IMG/VR virus record: IMGVR_UViG_3300045425_000063
Location: 1-62,078 of that record
Direction: 5' to 3' (one strand)
DNA length: 62,078 nucleotides
Source: a virus
The notes beneath the pieces were generated by a model. It saw only the letters and a list, made by a program, of their open reading frames with translations. It had not been told where the DNA came from and ran no database searches. A program made the translations under genes and the position numbers. Shown here piece after piece: positions 3,987 through 57,195 of this stretch. The number at the start of each line of letters is the position of its first letter. Position 1 is the stretch's first letter.

Positions 3987-4024
3987 AAAAAGTGAATAAC
4001 TACAAAGTAATTGTAATATGAGAA

Positions 4025-4054
4025 AGAACTAAAGTCCACTAAGATTTGGTTAAG
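4025..4054 (-). promoter_or_regulatory. PHO-box-like tandem repeat upstream of pstS
   Basis: On the minus strand three 8-base repeats in 11-bp register are seen: CTTAACCA, CTTAGTGG and TTAGTTCT, separated by AAT and ACT. This matches the cyanobacterial PhoB-site layout (CTTAACC-like, 8+3 bp). The array starts right at the U-tract of the porin terminator and ends 38 bases before the pstS start codon. Confidence 0.65.
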
Positions 4055-4085
4055 ACAAAAAAAGCACCCAAAGAATGGGTGCTTT
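4055..4085 (-). terminator. Intrinsic terminator of the porin gene
   Basis: A 10-bp perfect stem (4061-4070 with 4076-4085, 5-base loop) is followed on the minus strand by seven T residues. It lies 22 bases after the porin stop. Confidence 0.9.
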
Positions 4086-4107
4086 CACTCATATTATGAG
4101 TTGTTTA

Positions 4108-5589
4108 TCAGAATGTGAACTTGGTCTGAACCACTCCACCCCAAGCAGATTCATTTTGGAATCTTTGGTTGTTGCTCACATAGAAGAGAGCAGGAGTGAT
4201 GCTGATGTTATCGGTTACTTGGAACTTATAGAAGACCTCAAGCATTGAGGCATCATCAGAAATGTTTTCCGAGTTTCCAGGTTGACCCACAGCAATACCA
4301 GCAGAGTTGCCTTTGGCAAATACATCAGACCACTGAAGACCGACATACCAGGAATCGGAATCGGTGGCACCAGTTTTAGAACCTTTACCACTTACACCAT
4401 TATAACCATAACCTGCCGAGATAGAAGGAATGAACCCACTCTGGGAAGGTTGCCAATAAGCACTCAGAGCAATGCTGTTGCTTTCTTGACCTGCTACAAG
4501 GGCACCAGAACCACCTATGGGGGCGTTGAAGGTGCGTACACGAGAACCCTCAGTACCATAACGGTAACCGACTGCAGCACCCCACTGAGGGGCACGATAA
4601 CCTACCTGAGCAAGGAAGTTCAGAGCACCATCAGAATTGAAGACTCCAGTTTCGGTACTATCACCATCTTGAGCAACATAGTTCAGACCAGCAATGAAAC
4701 CACCCTGACCTTTTTGGGTGGGTTGCTTCCACTGAGCACCAAAACCAGCACCAGTTGCCTTGTTATAGACACCAGGAGCACCGGCAAGTTGGAAGAAGTC
4801 CAAGATTTCCGACTTATAAGCAGTGGGAACCCAGGTCATCTCAGTGTTACGAACCAGAGGACCAGCAGTTAGAGTAATACTCTTAGTGACTGGGAACTGA
4901 TAGTAAAGGCGGTCAATAGTTACTTGATCAGCAAGAGATTCTGCCTTATCAAGTTTGAACAAAGAAGAACTGGAACCAAAAGGATCGGAACCGAAGTTAC
5001 CAGAACGAAGACGAGTACGGAGCAGGTCCTTACCAGTAAACGAGGTATCAAAGTTCAGACGCAGATCATAGTTGAATGCGGTGTTACCCACATCACCACC
5101 TTTGTTGGTTTTCAGACCAGGAACACCACCAAGAATAAAGTTTGCCTCACCCTTGAGTTTAGTAGTGGTAGAGAATTGTGTTGCTTCCAAGTTTCCAACA
5201 CGATTATCTAGACCATCTACACGACCCTTGAGTACGGTAAGTTCACTCCTGAATTCGTTCAGCAGTCGTTGAAGTTCATCTGTAGTTTCAGTTACACGAT
5301 CCAGGCAGGCATTCAGCAGTGCTGCTGCTTCAAAGCGGGTCATTGCCTGACCACCTTTGTATGTGCCATTAGGATAACCAGCAACGCAACCATAACGGTC
5401 TACGAGGTTGGTAAGTGCCTGATATGCCCAATCAGTAGGTTGGACATCAGAGAATTGAGTAATACTTGTGACCTGTGCTGCCGAAGCATACTTATTGACA
5501 TCCTCAGTATTGAGTTCTGCAGCATTCACCGCAGGAGCAACAAGACCCAGAGCAACAGGGACGAGCATTAGTTTTTTAAGAAAATTCAT
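4108..5589 (-). CDS. Cyanobacterial SLH/OprB-type outer-membrane porin
   Basis: The 493-residue protein has a signal peptide ending near AVNA (residue 23), then an SLH domain (FSDVQPTDWAYQAL, YGCVAGYP, AMTRFEAAALLNACL), a short coiled coil (about 100-135) and a long beta-barrel with alternating polar and aromatic residues. It ends in Phe (TKFTF), the usual outer-membrane assembly signal. This is the architecture of the main porins of Synechococcus. It would insert in the host outer membrane and change small-solute uptake. Its position beside pstS suggests a link with phosphate nutrition, which is an inference. Confidence 0.85.
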   Translation of the reverse strand: MNFLKKLMLVPVALGLVAPAVNAAELNTEDVNKYASAAQVTSITQFSDVQPTDWAYQALTNLVDRYGCVAGYPNGTYKGGQAMTRFEAAALLNACLDRVTETTDELQRLLNEFRSELTVLKGRVDGLDNRVGNLEATQFSTTTKLKGEANFILGGVPGLKTNKGGDVGNTAFNYDLRLNFDTSFTGKDLLRTRLRSGNFGSDPFGSSSSLFKLDKAESLADQVTIDRLYYQFPVTKSITLTAGPLVRNTEMTWVPTAYKSEILDFFQLAGAPGVYNKATGAGFGAQWKQPTQKGQGGFIAGLNYVAQDGDSTETGVFNSDGALNFLAQVGYRAPQWGAAVGYRYGTEGSRVRTFNAPIGGSGALVAGQESNSIALSAYWQPSQSGFIPSISAGYGYNGVSGKGSKTGATDSDSWYVGLQWSDVFAKGNSAGIAVGQPGNSENISDDASMLEVFYKFQVTDNISITPALFYVSNNQRFQNESAWGGVVQTKFTF

Positions 5590-20380: not shown

Positions 20381-22684
20381 TTAGATCGTACAACTTTCAC
20401 ACGCTTCTTCATCAGAACTCATAATATCATTTAGGAGAGATTGAAGTTCTGGTTTTTGTTCTTCAACTACCTCATCAGTCTTAATATCATAAGTGTTTTG
20501 ATAGTAAGCAGTCTTATGCCCCAACTTAAAACAAGTAAGCATATCCTGTGCCATTACGCTAACAGGAACTTCATTATCGGCATAATTTTCTGGGTTATAC
20601 GACCAGTTTCCAGAAATTGCTTGATCAAAGAACTTTTGCATAACAGCAACAACATTAATATAACCCCGATTGCTAGGCATATCCCAAAGAAGCGTATAAT
20701 TGTTCTTAAGTGACTGATATTGAGGGACAATCTGCTTGAGTGGACCTTTTTTAGACTTTTTAATGGACAAGTATCCACGAGGTGGTTCGATTCCATTGGT
20801 TGCGTTTGACACAACGGAACTGCTCTCCGAAGGCATCTGTGCGGACAATGTTGAGTGCCTGAGACCGTGTTCCAGGATAGATGCTCTAAGACTTTCCCAA
20901 TCATGTTGAAGCGGTGTGGATGAAATTTCGTCTACGTCTTTTTTATATGTATCAATAGGAAGAATACCATCAGCATACTTAGTACGTCCAAAGTATTCAC
21001 AGTGACCTTTCTCTTTGGCAATCTGATTTGATGCCTTAAGAAGGTAATACTGGAAGGACTCAGAAAGACCGTGAACGGCATCCCACGCCCCATGTGAGTC
21101 GTAGTTGAACCCAAGTTTAGCAAGGTAATGAGCAAGACCAATATAACCTATTCCAAGAGATCTACGGCGCTTGGTAAAGTTCTCTGCTGCCTTTACTGGG
21201 TAATTTTGATAATCAATAATTTCTTCCAGAGAACGTACAGAAAGATTACAAAGTTCTTCAAGTTCCTCATCAGATTTAACTTTACCTACGTTGATTGCTG
21301 ATAAAATGCAAGTAGCAATCTCTTGAGGACCATCATCATCAATATGTTGAATTGGTGTTGTCGGTTCTGTAATTTCTTGACAAAGGTTTGACATTGTAAT
21401 CTGGTCCTTATAAGAACTATGAGAATTACAATGATCAATATTCATGATGTAGATGCGACCCGTTTCAGCACGTTCTTTGAGAAGACTAAGAATAAGTTCT
21501 TGTGCTTTAACAGTTTTTGATGGAATGGACGAATTGTTTTCATATTCCACATACAAATCATCAAACTTGTCTGTTCCAAAAGAATCATAAAGTCCAGGGA
21601 CATCATGCGGAGAGAACAGTGTGATCTCTCCATCTTGAATAAACCTTTCATAGAAAATTTTACTAAGTTGAATTGAGTAATCAAGTTTGCGGACACGATT
21701 ATCTTCGGTTCCTTTGTTGTTTTTAAGTACTAAGATATCTTGGATTTCTTGGTGCCAGATTGGAAAATGGACTGTAGCTGATCCACCACGGATTCCATTT
21801 TGGGTGCAGCATCGTACAGTTGATTCAAACTTTTTAAGGAAAGGAACAACGCCAGTGTGCTGAACTTCTCCGCCTCTGATTTTAGAATTGATGCCCCGGA
21901 TGCGACCTGCGTTGATACCAATTCCTGCTCTTTGAGAAACATACCTACCAATTGCCATATCACTACTGAAGATACTGTCAAGGGTGTCATCAACATCAAC
22001 AAGAACACAAGATGCAAATTGACGAAGTGGGGTTCTAACACCTGCCATGATTGGTGTAGGAATGTTGATTTTGTGCTTTGAGATTGCGTCATAGTACCTC
22101 TTGACGTAGGACATTCTGGTTTCTTTTGAATACTCTGCAAAGATAGTCAGAGCAATCATCATATACATAAATTGCGGAGTTTCATATACTCCACCACCAC
22201 TACGATCTTGAACCAAATACTTATCGACTACTTGACGTAAACCCGCATAGGTGAACAAATAATCTCGGTCATGATCAATATAAGAATCCGCACGGTGGAT
22301 CTCTTCTTTCGAATATTTGTTAAAAATATCCTTATCATATACCTCATGATTAACACACTGATAAATGTGTTGCTCTAAAGGTGGGAGTTCCTTCATCTTC
22401 CCATAAAGTTGTTTACGGACAGAAAATAATAGAAGACGAGCAGCAACAAATTGATAATTAGGATGATCTAAATCAATAAGATCACTTGCACTACGAATAA
22501 GGATTTCTTGTATTTCTTGAGTGGATATTCCACTATAGAATTGAATACCAGAGGTCATTTCAACTTGACTTGCAGAGACTCCTGCAAGACCCTTACATGC
22601 CTCTTCAACCATCAAGTGCATCTTATCTAGGTCAAGAGATTCAATTAGACCATTTCTCTTGACTACTTTTGTTCCGTTGCTCAT
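20381..22684 (-). CDS. nrdA: Class Ia ribonucleotide reductase, alpha subunit
   Basis: The 767-residue protein has an N-terminal partial ATP cone (VVKRNGLIESLDLDK), then the 10-stranded barrel with FASCVLVDVDD, QRAGIGINAGRIRG, the catalytic MSNLCQEI (Asn, Cys, Glu), SLGIGYIGLAHYLAKLG and SAQMPSESSS. The CESCTI tail supplies the redox Cys pair. It reduces ribonucleoside diphosphates to deoxy forms for phage DNA synthesis, together with NrdB 68 bases downstream. Confidence 0.97.
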   Translation of the reverse strand: MSNGTKVVKRNGLIESLDLDKMHLMVEEACKGLAGVSASQVEMTSGIQFYSGISTQEIQEILIRSASDLIDLDHPNYQFVAARLLLFSVRKQLYGKMKELPPLEQHIYQCVNHEVYDKDIFNKYSKEEIHRADSYIDHDRDYLFTYAGLRQVVDKYLVQDRSGGGVYETPQFMYMMIALTIFAEYSKETRMSYVKRYYDAISKHKINIPTPIMAGVRTPLRQFASCVLVDVDDTLDSIFSSDMAIGRYVSQRAGIGINAGRIRGINSKIRGGEVQHTGVVPFLKKFESTVRCCTQNGIRGGSATVHFPIWHQEIQDILVLKNNKGTEDNRVRKLDYSIQLSKIFYERFIQDGEITLFSPHDVPGLYDSFGTDKFDDLYVEYENNSSIPSKTVKAQELILSLLKERAETGRIYIMNIDHCNSHSSYKDQITMSNLCQEITEPTTPIQHIDDDGPQEIATCILSAINVGKVKSDEELEELCNLSVRSLEEIIDYQNYPVKAAENFTKRRRSLGIGYIGLAHYLAKLGFNYDSHGAWDAVHGLSESFQYYLLKASNQIAKEKGHCEYFGRTKYADGILPIDTYKKDVDEISSTPLQHDWESLRASILEHGLRHSTLSAQMPSESSSVVSNATNGIEPPRGYLSIKKSKKGPLKQIVPQYQSLKNNYTLLWDMPSNRGYINVVAVMQKFFDQAISGNWSYNPENYADNEVPVSVMAQDMLTCFKLGHKTAYYQNTYDIKTDEVVEEQKPELQSLLNDIMSSDEEACESCTI

Positions 22685-23649
22685 ATTTTCTTCCAGGTAG
22701 TAAATTTAAGTTTTGCTTCTAAACCAGAGTAAGTGTTTGATTCTATCACAGACTGAACATTAAGTCCAGATAATACCATCTCATTAATATCCTTTTCTTT
22801 AATAGTTTCAGGCCAAATTACGACACGTTCTTTATTATCAATACATTTTGAAATTCGCTTATGGATTTCTGCATTACGAGGTTCGTTATCGTATACCCAA
22901 ACACGATTGCGAATATTCCACTTATCAAGATCACCATCAGCTCCACATAAAGCAATTGAATTGCAAATAAATGTGGAGTCAAATGGACCTTCCACGATGT
23001 AGACAGTTTTGTCTTTTTGAACTTCATCAAGACCGTAGATTTTTGGTGCATCATCATCTAACATAATAGTAATATATTTAATAGACTTAGAATTTAACGA
23101 TCTTCCTTGAAGTCCTACAAATTTATTATTATAAATTAGTGGAATTACTATTCTTGGTTCTTCGTACTTTAAATTTGAAAATGTGTGTTGTATTGAGTTA
23201 ACCCATGATTTAAATTTTTCACTGTAATAAAATTTATTAGGGTTTAATTTTCTACTTTCCAAATACTTTTTTACTTCTTCATTTTCTGTGGCTTTTGGAA
23301 GATTTAATTTAATTTGAAACTTTGGTTTCTCAAAGTTAAACTTTGGTTCTTCAACTACAAAATTTTTTCCAGTAGTTCCAGTTTTAAATTTCTCGACAGA
23401 AAATTCCCGATATAAAATTGGGTCAATTTGTTTTAAAAAATTATTAAAAGATACGTTTACGCCACAATTATGACACTTAAAATTAGTGTTATTTTTTACA
23501 TCATAAAAATATCCTCTTGCTTTTGATTTATTTTTTTGAGAGTCTCCACAAATAGGACAACGACAGTTATAAAGTCCAGGTTTGATCTTTTTAAATTTTT
23601 CTAAACGAAGAGATAAAAGATTGATAAACTTATCATCAATCAAATTCAT
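22681..23649 (-). CDS. 61: DNA primase subunit gp61
   Basis: The 322-residue protein has an N-terminal zinc-binding domain (C31-x2-C34 and C59-x2-C62) and a TOPRIM-type core (VYIVEGPFDS with catalytic Glu; WVYDNEPR). This is the T4 gp61 primase layout. It would make RNA primers with the gp41 helicase. It overlaps nrdA by 4 bases (ATGA) and is driven by a promoter lying inside the upstream gene. Confidence 0.85.
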   Translation of the reverse strand: MNLIDDKFINLLSLRLEKFKKIKPGLYNCRCPICGDSQKNKSKARGYFYDVKNNTNFKCHNCGVNVSFNNFLKQIDPILYREFSVEKFKTGTTGKNFVVEEPKFNFEKPKFQIKLNLPKATENEEVKKYLESRKLNPNKFYYSEKFKSWVNSIQHTFSNLKYEEPRIVIPLIYNNKFVGLQGRSLNSKSIKYITIMLDDDAPKIYGLDEVQKDKTVYIVEGPFDSTFICNSIALCGADGDLDKWNIRNRVWVYDNEPRNAEIHKRISKCIDNKERVVIWPETIKEKDINEMVLSGLNVQSVIESNTYSGLEAKLKFTTWKKI

Positions 23650-23651
23650 AA

Positions 23652-24038
23652 TTAGTTCTTAACATTCTCCTGTATTATAACAGGTGCTGGTGCTGGAGTC
23701 AAGAATCTTTCAACAAGAGAAGAATGATTGATAACAAATGAAAGGGCAGCAACCACCCCCACTCCAACCCAAATACGCTTTTCTATTTCTTGTATTCTAG
23801 ACAATACTTTGTTATGATCGCCGTCCATTTTATCACGGAGTTTGTCAATCTTTGCAAATAATATTTCGTCAGTAGTTTCCTGTTTTGCAATTTTTTGCTC
23901 ATGGACGGCAAGCATTTTTCCTACGTTAATGTTTACTTCGCTTAACTTTTCAATAGCATCATCAATTTTTAAAACTATATCTTTAAGATCTACCAATTTT
24001 TGTTCTAACACGGCAATCTTTACGGATTCTTCGGACAT
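23652..24038 (-). CDS. Coiled-coil protein with C-terminal membrane helix
   Basis: The 128-residue protein is a long heptad-repeat coiled coil (about 5-88) followed by a membrane helix (IWVGVGVVAALSFVIN) and a short proline-rich tail. This tail-anchored form is conserved in cyanophages. It may be a membrane-associated factor; a holin or spanin role cannot be shown. Codons for its last residues overlap the -35/-10 of the primase promoter. Confidence 0.65.
   Translation of the reverse strand: MSEESVKIAVLEQKLVDLKDIVLKIDDAIEKLSEVNINVGKMLAVHEQKIAKQETTDEILFAKIDKLRDKMDGDHNKVLSRIQEIEKRIWVGVGVVAALSFVINHSSLVERFLTPAPAPVIIQENVKN
23674..23702 (-). promoter_or_regulatory. Intragenic sigma70-type promoter for primase-nrdA-nrdB
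   Basis: TTGACT (23697-23702) and TATAAT (23674-23679), 17 bp apart on the minus strand, inside the end of the coiled-coil gene and 25 bases upstream of gene 61. Confidence 0.75.
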
Positions 24039-24110: not shown

Positions 24111-24341
24111 TTATCTTTCAAGTAATCCCAAAGATTTCATCCAATTTTTATATTTTTTTGCTACAGATCTACCGTCAATTTTCCCACATCTTCTTTTTCT
24201 AAATCCAATTACAGGATCAAATCCTGCAGTTGGACCTGGAGGAGAAGAAGATCCACTAAATCCTCCATTTCCAGAAGACATTGTTGGTGCTTCCTCTTTA
24301 AGATTTCTAAAATATTGTATAACCTTATCAATCTTATTCAT
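24111..24341 (-). CDS. Small protein carrying the gp23 N-terminal motif
   Basis: The 76-residue protein (MNKIDKVIQYFRNLKEEAPT) contains PTMSxGxxGFSGxxxPxGPxAGFDPV (residues 19-44). The same pattern occurs in gp23 of this phage at residues 59-84, directly after the probable gp21 cleavage site. Leu-Lys-Glu at 14-16 fits the [IL]xE rule for gp21 cutting. The C-terminus is basic. It is probably a head-associated protein processed with the capsid, which is an inference. Confidence 0.6.
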   Translation of the reverse strand: MNKIDKVIQYFRNLKEEAPTMSSGNGGFSGSSSPPGPTAGFDPVIGFRKRRCGKIDGRSVAKKYKNWMKSLGLLER

Positions 24342-24720
24342 CTTTAATGTAAATTTTTTGAAGTTGTTCTAGACAATTTAAATCTACTTGAATATCATGA
24401 ATGTTAGTTTTTGGATATTGTGGAAGACGATTTAAAAACAATATAAAAGTTTTTACTTGAGACCACATTTCTCTTTCCAATTTAAAAAATAACATAGGAG
24501 TAGTTGCCTCACCAAATATATTATATAAAACAATAAAGTGATTAATTAACAGGTGAGTTTTAAGTTCACCTGTTTTTTTATATCTTTTTAAAAGTCTCTT
24601 AATATATTTGAAATGATTTAAGTCTTTATCAAAATCTTCTTTAGCGACTGCTTGAGGATTTTCATAATTCTTAATGGCAAATAAGAGGAAATTATCCTCA
24701 TTCAGTTCATGGAAGATCAT
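24334..24720 (-). CDS. Conserved cyanophage protein of unknown function
   Basis: The 128-residue helical protein (MIFHELNEDNFLLFAIKNYE) has a basic middle (FKYIKRLLKRYKKTGELKTH) and aromatic helices. I recognise it as a type often found near structural genes in cyanophages, without known function. It overlaps the downstream gene by 8 bases. A hairpin with a T-run on the plus strand lies inside it. Confidence 0.65.
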   Translation of the reverse strand: MIFHELNEDNFLLFAIKNYENPQAVAKEDFDKDLNHFKYIKRLLKRYKKTGELKTHLLINHFIVLYNIFGEATTPMLFFKLEREMWSQVKTFILFLNRLPQYPKTNIHDIQVDLNCLEQLQKIYIKDE

Positions 24721-24729
24721 ATTTTATTG

Positions 24730-25578
24730 TCAAGAAACTGTCATAGTTGCAATACCAGAAGTCACTGTGACATCTCCGGAAGAAATAATTACACGATACT
24801 CATACTGATCCTTAGCGGTGTTAGTATTTGCAATACCAACAGAAGTGCCAGTTGCTCCAACAAGGTTATCAAATCCGCCGCCATCATCTTCTTGCCACTG
24901 ATATGTTACAGGAGCATAAGAAGGTACTACAGAAGCAACTACACTGAAGGTTGCTGTCGCAGTAGTTCCAACTCCAACTGAAGCAGGTTGTGAGTTGATA
25001 GTAATAATAGCATCAACAAACACGACATCATCATTAGCATCTCCAGGAGCACCATAAGTTGCATTAGTTCCGCTAGTGATCTCGGACATTGCTACAAGAG
25101 TTTCCGACTTAACTCTTAGATTGCCGTGCATATCAATATAAGTGTGAATACCGACCCAACCAGCATGAATACCGCCATATTGAGTTGAAATTCCAGAAGC
25201 GCCGGGTGTTAATAATGCAATTTCATATTTGTCAACACCATAAACGGTATTTGTCAATCCAGACGAAGTAGTTTGAATACCTGCATAGTTTGAATCTTCA
25301 AGAGTATATACTGGTTTCTCAGAAAGTGTATAAGCAACCCCAGCAATAACTGCTCCACTTAAATATTGAGTTTTTGCAATTGAAACAACAGTATCAGAAG
25401 TAATTCCTGAAATTACTGCTGAACCAAAAGTTCCACCTGCTCCAATCGTAATCACATCACCAGTAGAAATACCGGCAGCAGTGAACGAAGTCCCAGATCC
25501 AGTAATAGTTTTTGTGGTGTAATTTACTGTTACGGTTCCTACCGAATAAAGACTATCTGCAGTTCCCCAGAGTGCCAT
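24730..25578 (-). CDS. Virion protein with Ig-like C-terminal domain
   Basis: The 282-residue protein is Gly/Thr/Ser-rich and all-beta. Residues about 192-282 look like an Ig-like domain (INSQPASVGVGTTATATFSV, VTYQWQEDDGG, YEYRVIISSG). The N-terminal part has beta repeats like cyanophage capsid or tail accessory proteins. A TATAAATA promoter 35 bases upstream marks it as late. Ig-like domains on virions often bind surfaces weakly. It is probably a decoration or fibre-type protein. Confidence 0.65.
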   Translation of the reverse strand: MALWGTADSLYSVGTVTVNYTTKTITGSGTSFTAAGISTGDVITIGAGGTFGSAVISGITSDTVVSIAKTQYLSGAVIAGVAYTLSEKPVYTLEDSNYAGIQTTSSGLTNTVYGVDKYEIALLTPGASGISTQYGGIHAGWVGIHTYIDMHGNLRVKSETLVAMSEITSGTNATYGAPGDANDDVVFVDAIITINSQPASVGVGTTATATFSVVASVVPSYAPVTYQWQEDDGGGFDNLVGATGTSVGIANTNTAKDQYEYRVIISSGDVTVTSGIATMTVS

Positions 25579-28034: not shown

Positions 28035-28676
28035 TTATGTTCTTTTTACTTTATACTTATTTATGAATTTTTTAACATTAAAATTATCAATTGATTTAGT
28101 ATCAGAAACCGACATCACATATTTTCGTAAAGCATCAGTTCCAACTTCTCTTTGATTTGCTGGAACTCCAGATTTATTAGTCCATTCCATAACATCTCGG
28201 ATCCAAGGTTTAAACATCACATTATCTTCGGTAACACAGATGAGATAATTTGTTCCTCTACGAATAATTTTTCCAATTAAACCAGTATTGAGATTTTCTA
28301 CCCAATCTCCCTCATTGAATATTTCTCCACAAACATACTTATCTCTTAATTGTTTTTCAAACTCTTCTGCAACCTGATGGGATGGGGGAACAAGTGGAGA
28401 AAGTTTAGACCTATCTTGATCAGGATCTCTTTTCCCAAGTCTTTGATTTTGATTGGAAAATTTTAGAGCAACTGTTCCTCCGGAAGTAACTTTTGATTTT
28501 GCAATAAATTCACCAGTTTTACTATCGTGATAATCTCCGTGACCATTAGGAACTAATCTTCCACCACTAGGAAGACGGACTCTTTTTGCATTAAAGACAG
28601 CAAGATTTTTATTCTTGTCAACAAATTCAGACAAGGTATTATTTGCTTCTTGAATGAATTGGGAGAACTTTTTCAT
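28035..28676 (-). CDS. Putative internal head protein with capsid-targeting N-terminus
   Basis: The 213-residue protein starts MKKFSQFIQEA, closely resembling the T4 capsid-targeting sequence MKTYQEFIAEA of internal proteins, including the FIxE cleavage site of gp21. The C-terminal part has an SH3/KOW-like strand pattern (NEGDWVENLNTGLIGKII, NYLICVTED). It is probably packaged in the head, cut by gp21 and possibly ejected with DNA. That role is inferred from the N-terminus. Confidence 0.6.
   Translation of the reverse strand: MKKFSQFIQEANNTLSEFVDKNKNLAVFNAKRVRLPSGGRLVPNGHGDYHDSKTGEFIAKSKVTSGGTVALKFSNQNQRLGKRDPDQDRSKLSPLVPPSHQVAEEFEKQLRDKYVCGEIFNEGDWVENLNTGLIGKIIRRGTNYLICVTEDNVMFKPWIRDVMEWTNKSGVPANQREVGTDALRKYVMSVSDTKSIDNFNVKKFINKYKVKRT
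28058..28065 (-). promoter_or_regulatory. Late-promoter-like site (CATAAATA)
   Basis: CATAAATA on the minus strand, inside the end of the upstream gene and 28 bases before the EF-hand protein gene. Confidence 0.45.
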
Positions 28677-42280: not shown

Positions 42281-42715
42281 TCATTTACTTCCCCAGTTTG
42301 CGGCACCAACTTTACGACACTTCACTAAAGCACCGGATGCATAAGCAGAAGGCCAAACTCTGTAACGTGATTTTACTTTTTTATAACAAGCATCTTTTTC
42401 ACCTGCTTCCTCTTGAGTTACAATTTTTGCAGGTCCCGTTCTATTTGGATTTGGATCTTCTCTACGTTTTTTCTTTGCCCTCGCTTCTCTTTCATTCTTA
42501 TCTAGCGATGCACGGTCATCGGGGTCTCGGCAATATGGTTTTGTAGTTTGTCCTGGTTGTTTTGCACAAGGTTTTCCATCATACTTACCACCAGTTTGAA
42601 CCCATCCGTCCCTAAACCAATCCTCAAGAGAATATCCTGGATCCTTTGCTGATTTACCGTCAGTTTTTTCTACAATTTGATCTGATATTTGAATGAACTG
42701 CTTAAAAGTTCTCAT
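42281..42715 (-). CDS. Late protein with capsid-targeting-like N-terminus
   Basis: The 144-residue protein starts MRTFKQFIQISDQIVEK, similar to the T4 capsid-targeting sequence but without Glu right after FIQ; QIVE may serve as a gp21 site. The rest is Gly/Lys/Cys-rich (GKPCAKQPGQTTKPYCRD) and ends in CYKKVKSRYRVWPSAYASGA, a motif common in cyanophage proteins. A GATAAATA late-promoter-like site lies upstream. It is probably a basic internal head protein. Confidence 0.65.
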   Translation of the reverse strand: MRTFKQFIQISDQIVEKTDGKSAKDPGYSLEDWFRDGWVQTGGKYDGKPCAKQPGQTTKPYCRDPDDRASLDKNEREARAKKKRREDPNPNRTGPAKIVTQEEAGEKDACYKKVKSRYRVWPSAYASGALVKCRKVGAANWGSK

Positions 42716-51841: not shown

Positions 51842-53269
51842 TCACATAAGATTTTTAACAAGTACACGACGGTAGTAAGTATTGCTACTTGCAGTAATTC
51901 TACCGAGACCTTGAGCACCGCCTTCCGCGAATGGATTAGCAACAAGACCATAACGGGTCTTAAATCCAATTTTTGGTTGGAAGCTGTTCTCACCAACGGC
52001 ACGAACCATTTGGAGAGGAACATAAGGACAATAGAATAGACCAGCGTCATAAGGTGAAGAACCCTTATAACCAACAACATAATATTGGTTTGAACTTACG
52101 TTCGCAGCATAAGGATCAATATAGACGCGGAACTTGCCGAGTAGAACACCAGCAAAGGTGTTACCAGTGTCATCTACGTTGAGGTTTGCATTTAGAGCAG
52201 GAGTGTAATCAAGTACACCAGCCATGCTTAGTGCAGAAGCAACGTCAGCAGAACACATAATAACATTACCCTTCCCTCTACGAGTTTGCTGGGCGATAGC
52301 GTTAGCATCACGCTCAATCTGGAAGAGTAGACCCTTGAACTTCTCAACGCTCCAACGACCGTTTGAGTCAACGTCAAGGTCAAATACGCCAGCAGTTGCT
52401 ACGTTTGCTTGAGCACCAGGCTTAGCAACCTTGTAGATGGTACGAATTACTTCTCTATTGATTTCCGCAAGGATTTCAGTAGAAAGAATATTCGCAAGTT
52501 CTGCTTCGGCGTTTAGACCGTGAATTGCCTTAAGGTCCTGAGCAAGTTCAAGTGAATACTCGGCCTTTAGTGCTCTTGACTTCGCTTCAACTAGAACTTT
52601 CTCAATAGAGAAGTTCATTTCGTTGAACTGAGGACCACCATCCTGACCTAGTGCTTCAGAATCGGCAGTCTGCATACCCTGACCAGTCTTATAAGACAAC
52701 TGACCATTAGGATTAAGAAGACCTGGATTATCATTAGAACTACCAGTAACAACACTTGCGTTGGTAGTACCGAAACCTACCGCAACACCATCATCAGATG
52801 CTCCAGTATAATTACCTTGAGTTGCACTAAAATCACTGTTCTGAGCAGAGAAAGATGAGTTTACTTCGTTGTAGAAGGTTTCATCACCAGTGGTACGATT
52901 AGTACCATAGCGTGAACGCATAGCAAAGATAAGACCAGTAGGTCCGGTCATTGGTTGAACGCCAGCGAGGTCATAAGCGACCAAGTTAGGCATTGAGCGT
53001 CTAATTAGTGAAATTAGAACTGGATCAAAACCTGCAACTGGACCTTCAGGTTGAGATGTACCACTGAAACCACTGGTTCCAGCAGACATAGTTGGAGATT
53101 CAGTAAGGAATTCTCCGTGTGAGAAAGAATTCTGCTCTCTTAAAAATTTTTCTTGGTTCTCTAGCAAGACAGCGGTTACAGCCTTTCTGTGTGAATCTTT
53201 GATTGGATCAAGACCCTCATAGTTCAGAAGTGGTGCCCACTTTTCTTGCAATCTTTCTGATTGAAACAT
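51842..53269 (-). CDS. 23: Major capsid protein gp23
   Basis: The 475-residue protein has SPTMSAGTSGFSGTSQPEGP and FDPVLISLIRRSMPNLVAYD, AGVQPMTGPTGLIFAMRSRY and the C-terminal GFKTRYGLVANPF. Probable gp21 cleavage is after E57 (FLTE-SPTM), matching the T4 gp23 to gp23* step. It forms the head lattice. The residue 59-84 motif recurs in the small protein at 24111-24341. Confidence 0.97.
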   Translation of the reverse strand: MFQSERLQEKWAPLLNYEGLDPIKDSHRKAVTAVLLENQEKFLREQNSFSHGEFLTESPTMSAGTSGFSGTSQPEGPVAGFDPVLISLIRRSMPNLVAYDLAGVQPMTGPTGLIFAMRSRYGTNRTTGDETFYNEVNSSFSAQNSDFSATQGNYTGASDDGVAVGFGTTNASVVTGSSNDNPGLLNPNGQLSYKTGQGMQTADSEALGQDGGPQFNEMNFSIEKVLVEAKSRALKAEYSLELAQDLKAIHGLNAEAELANILSTEILAEINREVIRTIYKVAKPGAQANVATAGVFDLDVDSNGRWSVEKFKGLLFQIERDANAIAQQTRRGKGNVIMCSADVASALSMAGVLDYTPALNANLNVDDTGNTFAGVLLGKFRVYIDPYAANVSSNQYYVVGYKGSSPYDAGLFYCPYVPLQMVRAVGENSFQPKIGFKTRYGLVANPFAEGGAQGLGRITASSNTYYRRVLVKNLM

Positions 53270-53323: not shown

Positions 53324-54544
53324 TCAGCGTTTTGCAACTGCTGAAAGAGTCCTCAAGTAAGCATTCATTGTATCTGAGTGAAACTCAGTTGCAACGTCTA
53401 CTCCTTCAGATAATGTTTCAGTTGTTGCTGATGGAGCAACTATTCTTGAAGGAAAATATGATTCCTTCAAAGTCTCCAGTTTTCCACGATATTCTGCCTC
53501 ACTCTCAAACTCTACACTTTCGGAAAGTGAAGCGAGCTTTTCCTTCTGAGTGGTCGCAAGACCTTCAGAAATTTCATCAAAGATTCTATCAGCAACCGAC
53601 TCTGAGAGGCGCTTGTTGAGTTGAATATTTCTCTCAATTTGCTCGTTGAGTTTAGTCTCCATATCATCAAGTTTTTCTACCATATTCTCAAGTACATCAT
53701 ATTTTTCTTCAGGGATTTCTACATAATGTTCTTCAAAAAGTTGCTTGAGACCACCAAGGAATGACTCAGTGAGTTCTTCCTTGAGACCTGTCTCAATAGC
53801 AAGAGTGTTTTCATCTACCCACTCTTCAGCAACATACTCTAGATAAGCGTCTAGGCGCTCTTCTAGTTCTTCTTTGATTACTTGAACTTCTTCTACTAGT
53901 TTATCTTCGTATTGAACTTCAAGTGACTCACGGATTTCATTAACTTTTGAACGAAGAGCAGATTCAAAAATCACTCTTGCTTTTTCTTGGAACTCTTCGG
54001 AGAGATCTTCGCCATGAAGTAGAGCATTGACATCTTCTTCAATGTCAAACTCTTCTTTCTTCATTTCATCTTCATCATCTTCATCTTCTTCATCATCATC
54101 TTCATCATCATTTTCATCATCTTCGTCGTTATTATTTTTCTTAGACTTTTTATTACCTTTCTCTTCATCTTCTTCAGAGATTAAATCCTCATCTTCAGAA
54201 TCTTCTTCTGAAATAAGATCTTCATCTTCCAATTCTTCTTCTTCCTTTACGGCATCAGATTTCTTAAGACCCTTCATAGGATCAGCGCCCTTTGCACCTT
54301 TATTTACTACATCTTTAACTTGCTTAAGACCAGAACCAGCATCTTTAAGTTGTGCTGAATTGTCATCTGGTCTATAATTATCTGGAGTAGGACCACCTAA
54401 ATCTTCCCAACTACCAGTTTGACCAGCAACTGCTCCAGGTGCAAGTTTGGGCATTGGATCCCCTGCTTTTGCGTTAGCATTTATAGCAGTTCTGGATTGC
54501 TTTGTGCCTGATTCCATTTCCTGTAAGTTTTTACCACGAGACAT
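53324..54544 (-). CDS. 22: Prohead scaffold protein gp22
   Basis: The 406-residue protein has an N-terminal Gly/Ala/Pro-rich part, a very acidic segment (about 100-165) with a direct repeat of EDEDLISEED, and a long helical C-terminal part (170-406) with several [IL]xE sites. Scaffold gp22 forms the prohead core and is degraded by gp21. A TATAAATA promoter lies 40 bases upstream. It is longer than T4 gp22 (269), mainly from the acidic insert. Confidence 0.9.
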   Translation of the reverse strand: MSRGKNLQEMESGTKQSRTAINANAKAGDPMPKLAPGAVAGQTGSWEDLGGPTPDNYRPDDNSAQLKDAGSGLKQVKDVVNKGAKGADPMKGLKKSDAVKEEEELEDEDLISEEDSEDEDLISEEDEEKGNKKSKKNNNDEDDENDDEDDDEEDEDDEDEMKKEEFDIEEDVNALLHGEDLSEEFQEKARVIFESALRSKVNEIRESLEVQYEDKLVEEVQVIKEELEERLDAYLEYVAEEWVDENTLAIETGLKEELTESFLGGLKQLFEEHYVEIPEEKYDVLENMVEKLDDMETKLNEQIERNIQLNKRLSESVADRIFDEISEGLATTQKEKLASLSESVEFESEAEYRGKLETLKESYFPSRIVAPSATTETLSEGVDVATEFHSDTMNAYLRTLSAVAKR

Positions 54545-54601: not shown

Positions 54602-55249
54602 TTACAATGAATTTAAGAAGTCATTGAATAAATTTAATTTATTCTCTTCTAGTTGTTTAGAATCTACTAAAGTATTAATTCTTTTATGTATTCTTGAAAC
54701 TTTTTGCTCAAGAACACCATTATTCCATACCCACTCAACACCTTCCATAATTCCCGAAACGAAAGCATCGGGTGCAGAGGGGTCTGCAACAATATCAGCG
54801 GCGGTGGCAAGCATAAAATCCTCACCAACTTCTTTGTAACCTTTATTGTTTTCCCTTAGTGATCCAATACCACGAGAGGAAACTCCAAGACAAACACCAT
54901 CACCAAGAAGTGATTCGGCAATTTTACCCATAGGAGTTGATAAAATTTGCGCCTTCCCAATCCAAGTATTACCCTTTTGCTCAAGGCAAACAATTTTATG
55001 AGAAACACGATCAAGATTCACGGTAGGTCCATCTGGGTGACCTAGTTCTCCAAGAGCACGACCTTTTTGAATATAGTTTTCATTATAACGCTTTACTTCT
55101 CTTTCCATAATAGAAAAAGGATACATTCTTCCATTTCTATTTACGCATTCAGATTGTAAAAAAGGTCCTGTTATATAAAGTCTTTTGTTACTACCAGTAC
55201 CTTCTGTAAGAACTTCAACCTTTTCTATCTCTTCGGTGATTAGTTTCAT
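54602..55249 (-). CDS. 21: Prohead core protease gp21
   Basis: The 215-residue serine protease has NRNGRMYPFSIMEREVKRYN, GELGHPDGPTVNLDRVSHKI (catalytic His) and GVCLGVSSRGIGSL (catalytic Ser). It cuts gp22, gp23, internal proteins and itself at [IL]xE sites during head maturation. Length and motif order agree with T4 gp21 (212). Confidence 0.95.
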   Translation of the reverse strand: MKLITEEIEKVEVLTEGTGSNKRLYITGPFLQSECVNRNGRMYPFSIMEREVKRYNENYIQKGRALGELGHPDGPTVNLDRVSHKIVCLEQKGNTWIGKAQILSTPMGKIAESLLGDGVCLGVSSRGIGSLRENNKGYKEVGEDFMLATAADIVADPSAPDAFVSGIMEGVEWVWNNGVLEQKVSRIHKRINTLVDSKQLEENKLNLFNDFLNSL

Positions 55250-56874: not shown

Positions 56875-57195
56875 TTAATCAATCCATTCTAATTTTGCGG
56901 GATGGTATCTTTTTGTGCTTCTAATATCAGTATTTTTTTCCATAGATGGATAAATTTGATGAACAACTGCTCCTGGATATTCCCCTTGAAGTTGTTCACC
57001 TAATTTTTGCCTTGACGGAATTCCATTTTCAGAAACTAATTCCATCCTATAAAGATTTCCATTCCACAAAACATCCGCAGTATATCCTTCTCCAAATGAA
57101 GATTGATCTGGTTGATCAGAATTTATATAAAGATTTCCATTAAAGTCACCTGAAATATTTATTGATTCTGAGATGAATTGTTTAAAGGATTTCAT
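56875..57195 (-). CDS. Putative internal head protein with capsid-targeting N-terminus
   Basis: The 106-residue protein starts MKSFKQFISESINISGDFNG; MKSFKQFISES matches the T4 capsid-targeting sequence with an FIxE site for gp21. The rest is a beta-rich basic/acidic domain (YTADVLWNGNLYRMELVSEN). It lies next to the prohead genes, which supports packaging into the head core. The TAG of the previous gene is directly followed by this ATG. Confidence 0.65.
   Translation of the reverse strand: MKSFKQFISESINISGDFNGNLYINSDQPDQSSFGEGYTADVLWNGNLYRMELVSENGIPSRQKLGEQLQGEYPGAVVHQIYPSMEKNTDIRSTKRYHPAKLEWID

Follow-up and report, generated by a model that had tools for sequence, protein, structure and literature searches.

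Gene neighbourhood and layout of the small protein

The window analysed here is the whole 62,078-nt stretch of IMG/VR virus record IMGVR_UViG_3300045425_000063, from a T4-like ocean phage. Its minus strand encodes, from position 24,341 down to 24,111, a protein of 76 amino acids, and the start of this small gene overlaps the 3' end of the gp189 homologue by 8 nt (Table 1). By position, the gene is the orthologue of cyanophage Syn9 gp190. The slot that it occupies was present in every annotated cyanophage examined, in the order gp189 (DUF7207), slot gene, gp191 or its replacement, gp61 primase, nrdA, and nrdB, and Sinorhizobium phage phiM7 also has a slot gene between DUF7207 and the primase. 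Profile matches (phrog_696, E 1e-11; phrog_3286, E 1.6e-7) as well as position place the window protein in the cyanophage gp190 slot family (phrog_3286, phrog_696, and phrog_4187); a Pfam search with the same protein matched no family.

Table 1 Features of the window discussed in the text.
Feature	Position	Strand	Basis
gp61 DNA primase homologue	22681..23649	-	synteny with annotated cyanophages
gp191 homologue, DUF7201 coiled coil, downstream neighbour	23652..24038	-	Pfam profile
gp190-slot protein, 76 aa	24111..24341	-	ORF call; phrog_3286 and phrog_696; positional orthologue in the reference phages examined
Basic tail, residues 45-76, short helix 62-70, conserved [RK]xxW-type motif	24114..24209	-	charge; AlphaFold2 helix; W motif in 41/45
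Copy of mature gp23 N-terminus, residues 17-48, equivalent of the T4 gp23 N-fist region	24198..24293	-	69% identity to gp23 57-85; window gp23 aligned to T4 gp23; predicted disordered
Residues 1-16, putative propeptide with helix 3-16 and gp21 consensus LKE16 at its end	24294..24341	-	AlphaFold2 helix; [LI]xE at junction in 44/45 compact homologues
gp189 homologue (DUF7207; phrog_407), which marks the slot	24334..24720	-	PHROG and Pfam profiles
gp188-position protein (phrog_3086; also phrog_613 head protein)	24730..25578	-	PHROG; virion structural protein at the equivalent place in S-PM2, S-CAM1, and P-HM1
gp23 major capsid protein (phrog_138)	51842..53269	-	sequence search; PHROG profile; alignment to T4 gp23
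Mature gp23 N-terminus, residues 58-85, counterpart of the copy in the small protein; follows gp21 site LTE57	53015..53098	-	search and alignment to T4 gp23
gp22 scaffold (phrog_237)	53324..54544	-	PHROG profile
gp21 prohead protease (phrog_207), predicted processing enzyme	54602..55249	-	PHROG profile

Slot products range from about 60 to 297 aa, their T4-GC numbers differ between phages, and both their length and their C-terminus are highly variable. Most are strongly basic, and most copy the mature N-terminus of their own phage's gp23, the major capsid protein. Four parts make up the compact slot proteins: a helix forms the N-terminus, an [LI]xE site follows, and behind the Gly-rich arm comes a basic tail, in which an [RK]xxW-type motif is found (41/45 compact members); in larger slot proteins, the arm is placed ahead of other domains. 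AlphaFold2, run on window and metagenome-virus sequences, predicted for the window protein a helix (residues 3-16), a disordered arm, and a second helix (62-70), and the 31 residues from 46 to 76 carry a net charge of +9. Searches of solved structures with this protein and with the Syn9 protein returned no credible relative. A model of a class-B slot protein reached fair local confidence with a pTM of 0.29, and Foldseek searches with it gave no match in the PDB and mostly relatives among viral models.

The small protein shares a stretch with the capsid protein

Residues 17-45 of the small protein and 57-85 of the window's gp23 are identical at 20/29 positions (BLASTP, 69% over 29 residues). 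Within the window, phmmer matched the small protein to gp23 at E 1.3e-9, compared with E 1.8 for the next-best window ORF, and a search of the whole 62-kb record located the shared stretch in two places only, the small gene and gp23. The pattern PTMSxGxxGFSGxxxPxGPxAGFDPV spans residues 19-44 in the small protein and 59-84 in gp23, and [LI]xE stands ahead of the shared stretch in both (LKE16|E17 and LTE57|S58, respectively). A preliminary description of this DNA had reported this motif, its positions, and the preceding [IL]xE, and the BLASTP, phmmer, and whole-record searches bear it out exactly, with the gene on the minus strand. The likeness is confined to about 29 residues after the gp21 site: gp23 has the HK97 fold, whereas the small protein is without an HK97-fold capsid domain and the rest of its sequence is unrelated to gp23. 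Among solved structures, only T4 gp23 and gp24 were real relatives of the window gp23, and no solved cyanophage capsid was found.

It is apparently because of the shared arm that slot proteins have been misnamed as capsid proteins. The family phrog_696, labelled 'major head protein', is the slot family, which the ACG-2014d slot protein matches over its full length, and genuine gp23 belongs to phrog_138. The labels 'major head protein' or 'putative major capsid protein' also stand on slot proteins of NC_070962 (PQC12_gp275), NC_015282 (SSM1_197), NC_027130 (ABF04_gp169), MN580668, and OK499981. These names of slot proteins are misannotations in PHROGs, RefSeq, and GenBank.

The arm follows the gp23 of the same phage

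The arm follows the gp23 of the same phage, with exceptions. In 34 phages, own pairs of slot protein and gp23 had a mean double-centred score of 21.2 (null SD 2.1, p 1e-5, permuted pairings); after dereplication to 21 lineages, p was again 1e-5 and own gp23 ranked first in 10/21. In comparisons with the nearest relative's gp23 arm, which are not fully independent, the own gp23 arm matched better in 29 cases and worse in 3, with 2 ties. When four Straboviridae were added and one dubious ORF was dropped (37 phages), the score was 27.3 (SD 2.4, p 1e-5), and own matches exceeded permuted ones by 11 SD. Reversed arms in the 37-phage set reached only 2.2 vs 27.3, so shared composition explains little, though it gives a small signal. 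For the window's small protein, own gp23 ranks first.

Lineage-specific matches were seen in several phages. The pair reads GGGAYYRGSGQTDSGSPTAGFDP / GGGAMYRGTGKDDSGSPTGGYDK in Sf-CH5, where gp23 has the insert GGGAYYRGSGQTDSGSP and the slot protein GGGAMYRGTGKDDSGSP, and TNVGPINTPTTSSGAVAGFDPI / TNVGPINTPTTGKGAIAGFDPI in P-HM1, where TNVGPINTPTT is common to the two proteins. For S-CREM2 it is GFTGAAAPGGPNAGFDPVM / GFTGAAAPEGPVAGYDPLM, with GFTGAAAP in both, and TTGYT occurs in gp23 and slot protein of Syn9 and P-SSM4. Low complexity and predicted disorder of the stretch are what a chance likeness of Gly/Ser-rich sequence would show, but that explanation is excluded by the E value of 1e-9 in the window together with the permutation, nearest-relative, and reversed-arm tests (the last leaving only a small signal), and we give it a negligible probability.

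The exceptions include the IAG...PPV arms of DSL-LC03, ACG-2014f, and P-SSM2, which do not match own gp23; own gp23 also ranks low for S-CAM4, S-PM2, DLP6, and a group of class-B phages. An arm type with IAG...(D)PPV and a Lys run is common; it occurs in these three phages and in many metagenomic loci (L018-L037, L125-L161), in proteins that do not match own gp23 yet have the same helix, cut site, and W motif. The possibility that such arms copy another protein was pursued by a motif search, which returned no other carrier of the motif than the slot protein, along with weak gp23 matches. Slot proteins of S-SKS1 and AG-345-L05 (L056:3725-4183; L058 near 4000-4490; L038) have two tandem modules, a gp23-type arm and then an IAG...PPV-type arm, each preceded by its own helix and acidic junction. 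In P-SSM2, the coding sequence PSSM2_205, which has an IAG-type arm, contains an annotated tRNA-Asn in the same orientation (L063:2222-2307).

A local, lineage-specific match that follows gp23 would also result if gp23 and the small gene had exchanged sequence by neutral or recent gene conversion, without any selected function. The codons speak against this. Over identical residues in 14 phages, 105/225 codons were identical, which is the level expected from codon usage (102.8; z 0.3), and the likeness thus appears to be kept at the protein level rather than by recent conversion. The window pair has 12/19 identical codons at identical residues where codon usage predicts 9.0, so no recent DNA copying links its two stretches. 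That amino acids were held while synonymous sites drifted to chance points to protein-level selection, or to old copying kept only by selection, and the cut site just ahead of the match is near-invariant. We therefore regard gene conversion as very improbable, and recombination between the genes, one of two origins offered in the preliminary description, is not supported as a recent event.

A counterpart in T4, gp61.1

T4 was searched with its own gp23 N-fist as an intended negative control, and the search found gp61.1. Gene 61.1 lies directly upstream of gene 61 and encodes 54 aa, which read MKTFKEFIKE, then DMVAGDSGGNPENISIGTTSGAVVNKGP, then a Lys-rich tail. This corresponds to an internal-protein-type targeting peptide, an IKE site, a copy of the T4 gp23 N-fist, and a Lys tail. 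The arm scored 81 against T4 gp23 59-94 (shuffled 20, SD 3.8), and T4 gp23 is itself a hit of phrog_1823, the profile of gp61.1 (E 2.3e-11). T4 gp61.1 scored 82 with own gp23, and no cyanophage gp23 gave more than 31; its arm is T4 gp23 sequence, unlike cyanophage gp23. The net charge of gp61.1 is -1 overall, and a basic, DNA-facing tail is therefore not universal.

Like the cyanophage slot proteins, gp61.1 (phrog_1823; phrog_2086 with an extra N-terminal domain) is encoded next to the primase gene and combines an [LI]xE site, a copy of its own gp23 N-fist, and a charged tail. In phages that we take to be RB49-like, as well as in phiM7-like phages, the extra N-terminal domain stands ahead of the same copy, and phrog_2086 joins phiM7 gp353 to gp61.1. 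We equate the cyanophage slot with the T4 slot because of position, plan, and these phiM7-type intermediates and not because of direct sequence similarity; the phrog_1823 profile does not find cyanophage slot proteins. Co-variation within closely related Straboviridae was weak (p 0.025). In the literature searched, we found neither a function for gp61.1 or the cyanophage slot proteins nor gp61.1 peptides in T4 virions.

In many T4-like phages, a domain of ~110 aa (KPFxEWKAYxLGIID; phrog_2086) replaces the short targeting peptide before the arm, for example in phiM7 gp353, DLP6 AAY80_079, HTVC008M (near L188:1854), and T4-like 61.1 proteins at L293-L302 and L304. HTVC008M encodes this domain as a separate gene, with the arm in another gene downstream.

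Predicted processing and presence in virions

The gp21 consensus is L/I-x-E (PMC9026906). Among compact members, [LI]xE lies at the helix-arm junction in 44/45 and occurs elsewhere once in the remaining 1830 residues; shuffling of the junction region produced it in 12 of 45 (max 21). The targeting peptide and the gp21 site, both judged from sequence, suggest that the protein assembles within the prohead rather than serving as a decoration protein or a lattice plug, the other roles raised in the preliminary description. The putative propeptide and consensus also argue against an outer decoration protein of the Soc/Hoc type, since such proteins are added outside after expansion and without prohead processing. 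Several class-B members begin directly at the copy and have no [LI]xE site, which indicates that cleavage is not always needed and that what unites them with the members predicted to be cut is a gp23*-like N-terminus.

Virion evidence comes from orthologues. S-CREM2 ORF160, which occupies the slot, was detected in virions by mass spectrometry of CsCl preparations with 7 unique peptides and a low coverage of 13.1%, and its neighbours ORF157-159 and ORF161 are absent from the same table (PMC10665884). S-SCSM1 ORF97 is annotated as 'virion protein'. Labels in its record are consistent with the proteome published for the virion (PMC9602691), in which NMNAT ORF91, labelled likewise, is named as detected. 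The preliminary description had proposed a minor capsid protein, which both orthologues support, and had named absence from virions and lack of a similar motif in homologues as outcomes that would count against it; the S-CREM2 and S-SCSM1 orthologues are detected or annotated as virion proteins, and the motif is kept. We consider it quite probable that the small protein is a processed head protein.

The copy might instead serve as a substrate or decoy for assembly factors (gp21 protease, gp22 core, gp23 chaperone), by which the protein would time or regulate gp23 processing. It begins right after the gp21 consensus in both proteins, and factors that recognise gp23 could impose co-variation. 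However, gp21 specificity resides in the short L/I-x-E motif (PMC9026906) and not in 25 downstream residues, class-B proteins retain the copy without the site, and orthologues remain in finished virions. We find this reading unlikely.

The T4 internal proteins IPI, IPII, and IPIII offer a close comparison. The first ten residues of gp61.1 resemble the starts of IPII/IPIII (MKTYQEFIAE) and IPI (MKTFKEFT), a start that is known as the capsid targeting sequence, CTS (PMC9026906). The MKTYQEFIAE-type N-terminus is present in T4 gp61.1 and S-SSM7, followed as in the internal proteins by a gp21 consensus site; the cyanophage propeptide is usually another helix, and that of the window protein ends in LKE. 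Internal proteins are small, mostly basic, and head-targeted, as slot proteins would be. They differ in that the part after the cut in slot proteins copies the mature gp23 N-terminus, and in that the slot gene lies beside gene 61 and not in the IP locus. Slot proteins probably join a class already known, that of CTS-type head proteins processed by gp21, to which the gp23-arm copy would be the new addition.

The S-CREM2 slot protein has a gp23-like arm and then a domain 57% identical to a 144-aa window protein (42281-42715, minus strand), which has a CTS-like start (MRTFKQF) and a weak DUF5872 match. It is thus conceivable that slot proteins are ordinary ejected internal proteins of the T4 kind, for which nothing but targeting and cleavage would count, the gp23-like stretch being a linker passed on by descent; the CTS-like starts of T4 gp61.1 and S-SSM7, the strongly basic character of most members, and the S-CREM2 domain, found in the window as a separate protein with a CTS-like start, would all agree with this. 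A passive linker, however, would not track the same phage's gp23 with lineage-specific inserts, and we hold this explanation to be rather improbable. Two further minus-strand window proteins begin like T4 internal-protein targeting sequences, at 28035-28676 (MKKFSQFIQE) and 56875-57195 (MKSFKQFISE), and are candidates for prohead targeting; the gene at 56875-57195 is located within the cluster of head genes, on the upstream side of the protease gene.

Proposed docking at the N-fist site

In T4, the N-fist (gp23 66-91) makes inter-capsomer contacts and is disordered in portal-facing subunits (PMC7136217). It is disordered inside the prohead, shifts outward on expansion, and contacts four subunits in two capsomers (PMC9958956). 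We propose, with a probability of about 60%, that the small protein is an N-fist mimic, i.e., a T4-like head protein that docks on the shell through a gp23-like N-terminus. An N-terminal helix or CTS-like peptide would take the slot protein into the prohead core, where gp21 would cut after [LI]xE (LKE16 here) and leave a new N-terminus that copies the mature gp23* N-terminus. The copy would dock between capsomers, at the site usually taken up by the gp23* N-fist, and the basic tail (as in the window protein), or a larger cargo domain elsewhere, would be held to the shell, presumably facing the DNA.

If the copy docks at the N-fist site, the arm sequence must follow the same phage's gp23, and such docking is the simplest account of a co-varying copy. 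The preliminary description had suggested that the gp23 arm was captured for binding at the same position of the capsid, and this gains support from homologues that keep the motif, from a motif that tracks own gp23, and from the near-invariant predicted gp21 site. As a guess, the likeliest location is at acceptor sites without a gp23 donor, around the portal and perhaps at pentons. A functional parallel may be seen in P1 DarA (with Hdf), whose propeptide is cut by the prohead protease and which is bound to the inner shell face and to DNA (PMC12810830). DarA is likened here by function and not by sequence; it is much larger and has no reported copying of the capsid protein's N-terminus.

More tentatively, many T4-like phages including T4 itself (gp61.1) might encode one gp21-processed surrogate N-fist that fills donor-less acceptor sites (portal-proximal or penton-facing) and anchors a DNA-facing tail or cargo. 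Capsid protein and mimic would then co-evolve, and the slot would be a plug-in point for head cargo. We can offer this wider scheme as a possibility that falls short of our main proposal in confidence.

The likeness between the capsid protein and the small protein is real and not due to chance, has a probable function, and is linked to an uncharacterised T4 gene. The T4 head is among the best-studied virus assemblies, and the finding gives gene 61.1 a concrete, testable job; within a conserved operon of cyanophages, the gene that varies most likewise gains a testable role. A wide misannotation, that of phrog_696 and of RefSeq 'major head protein' and 'putative major capsid protein' entries, is corrected. 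Our results also suggest a general way of attaching proteins to a capsid, namely to copy the capsid protein's own docking arm.
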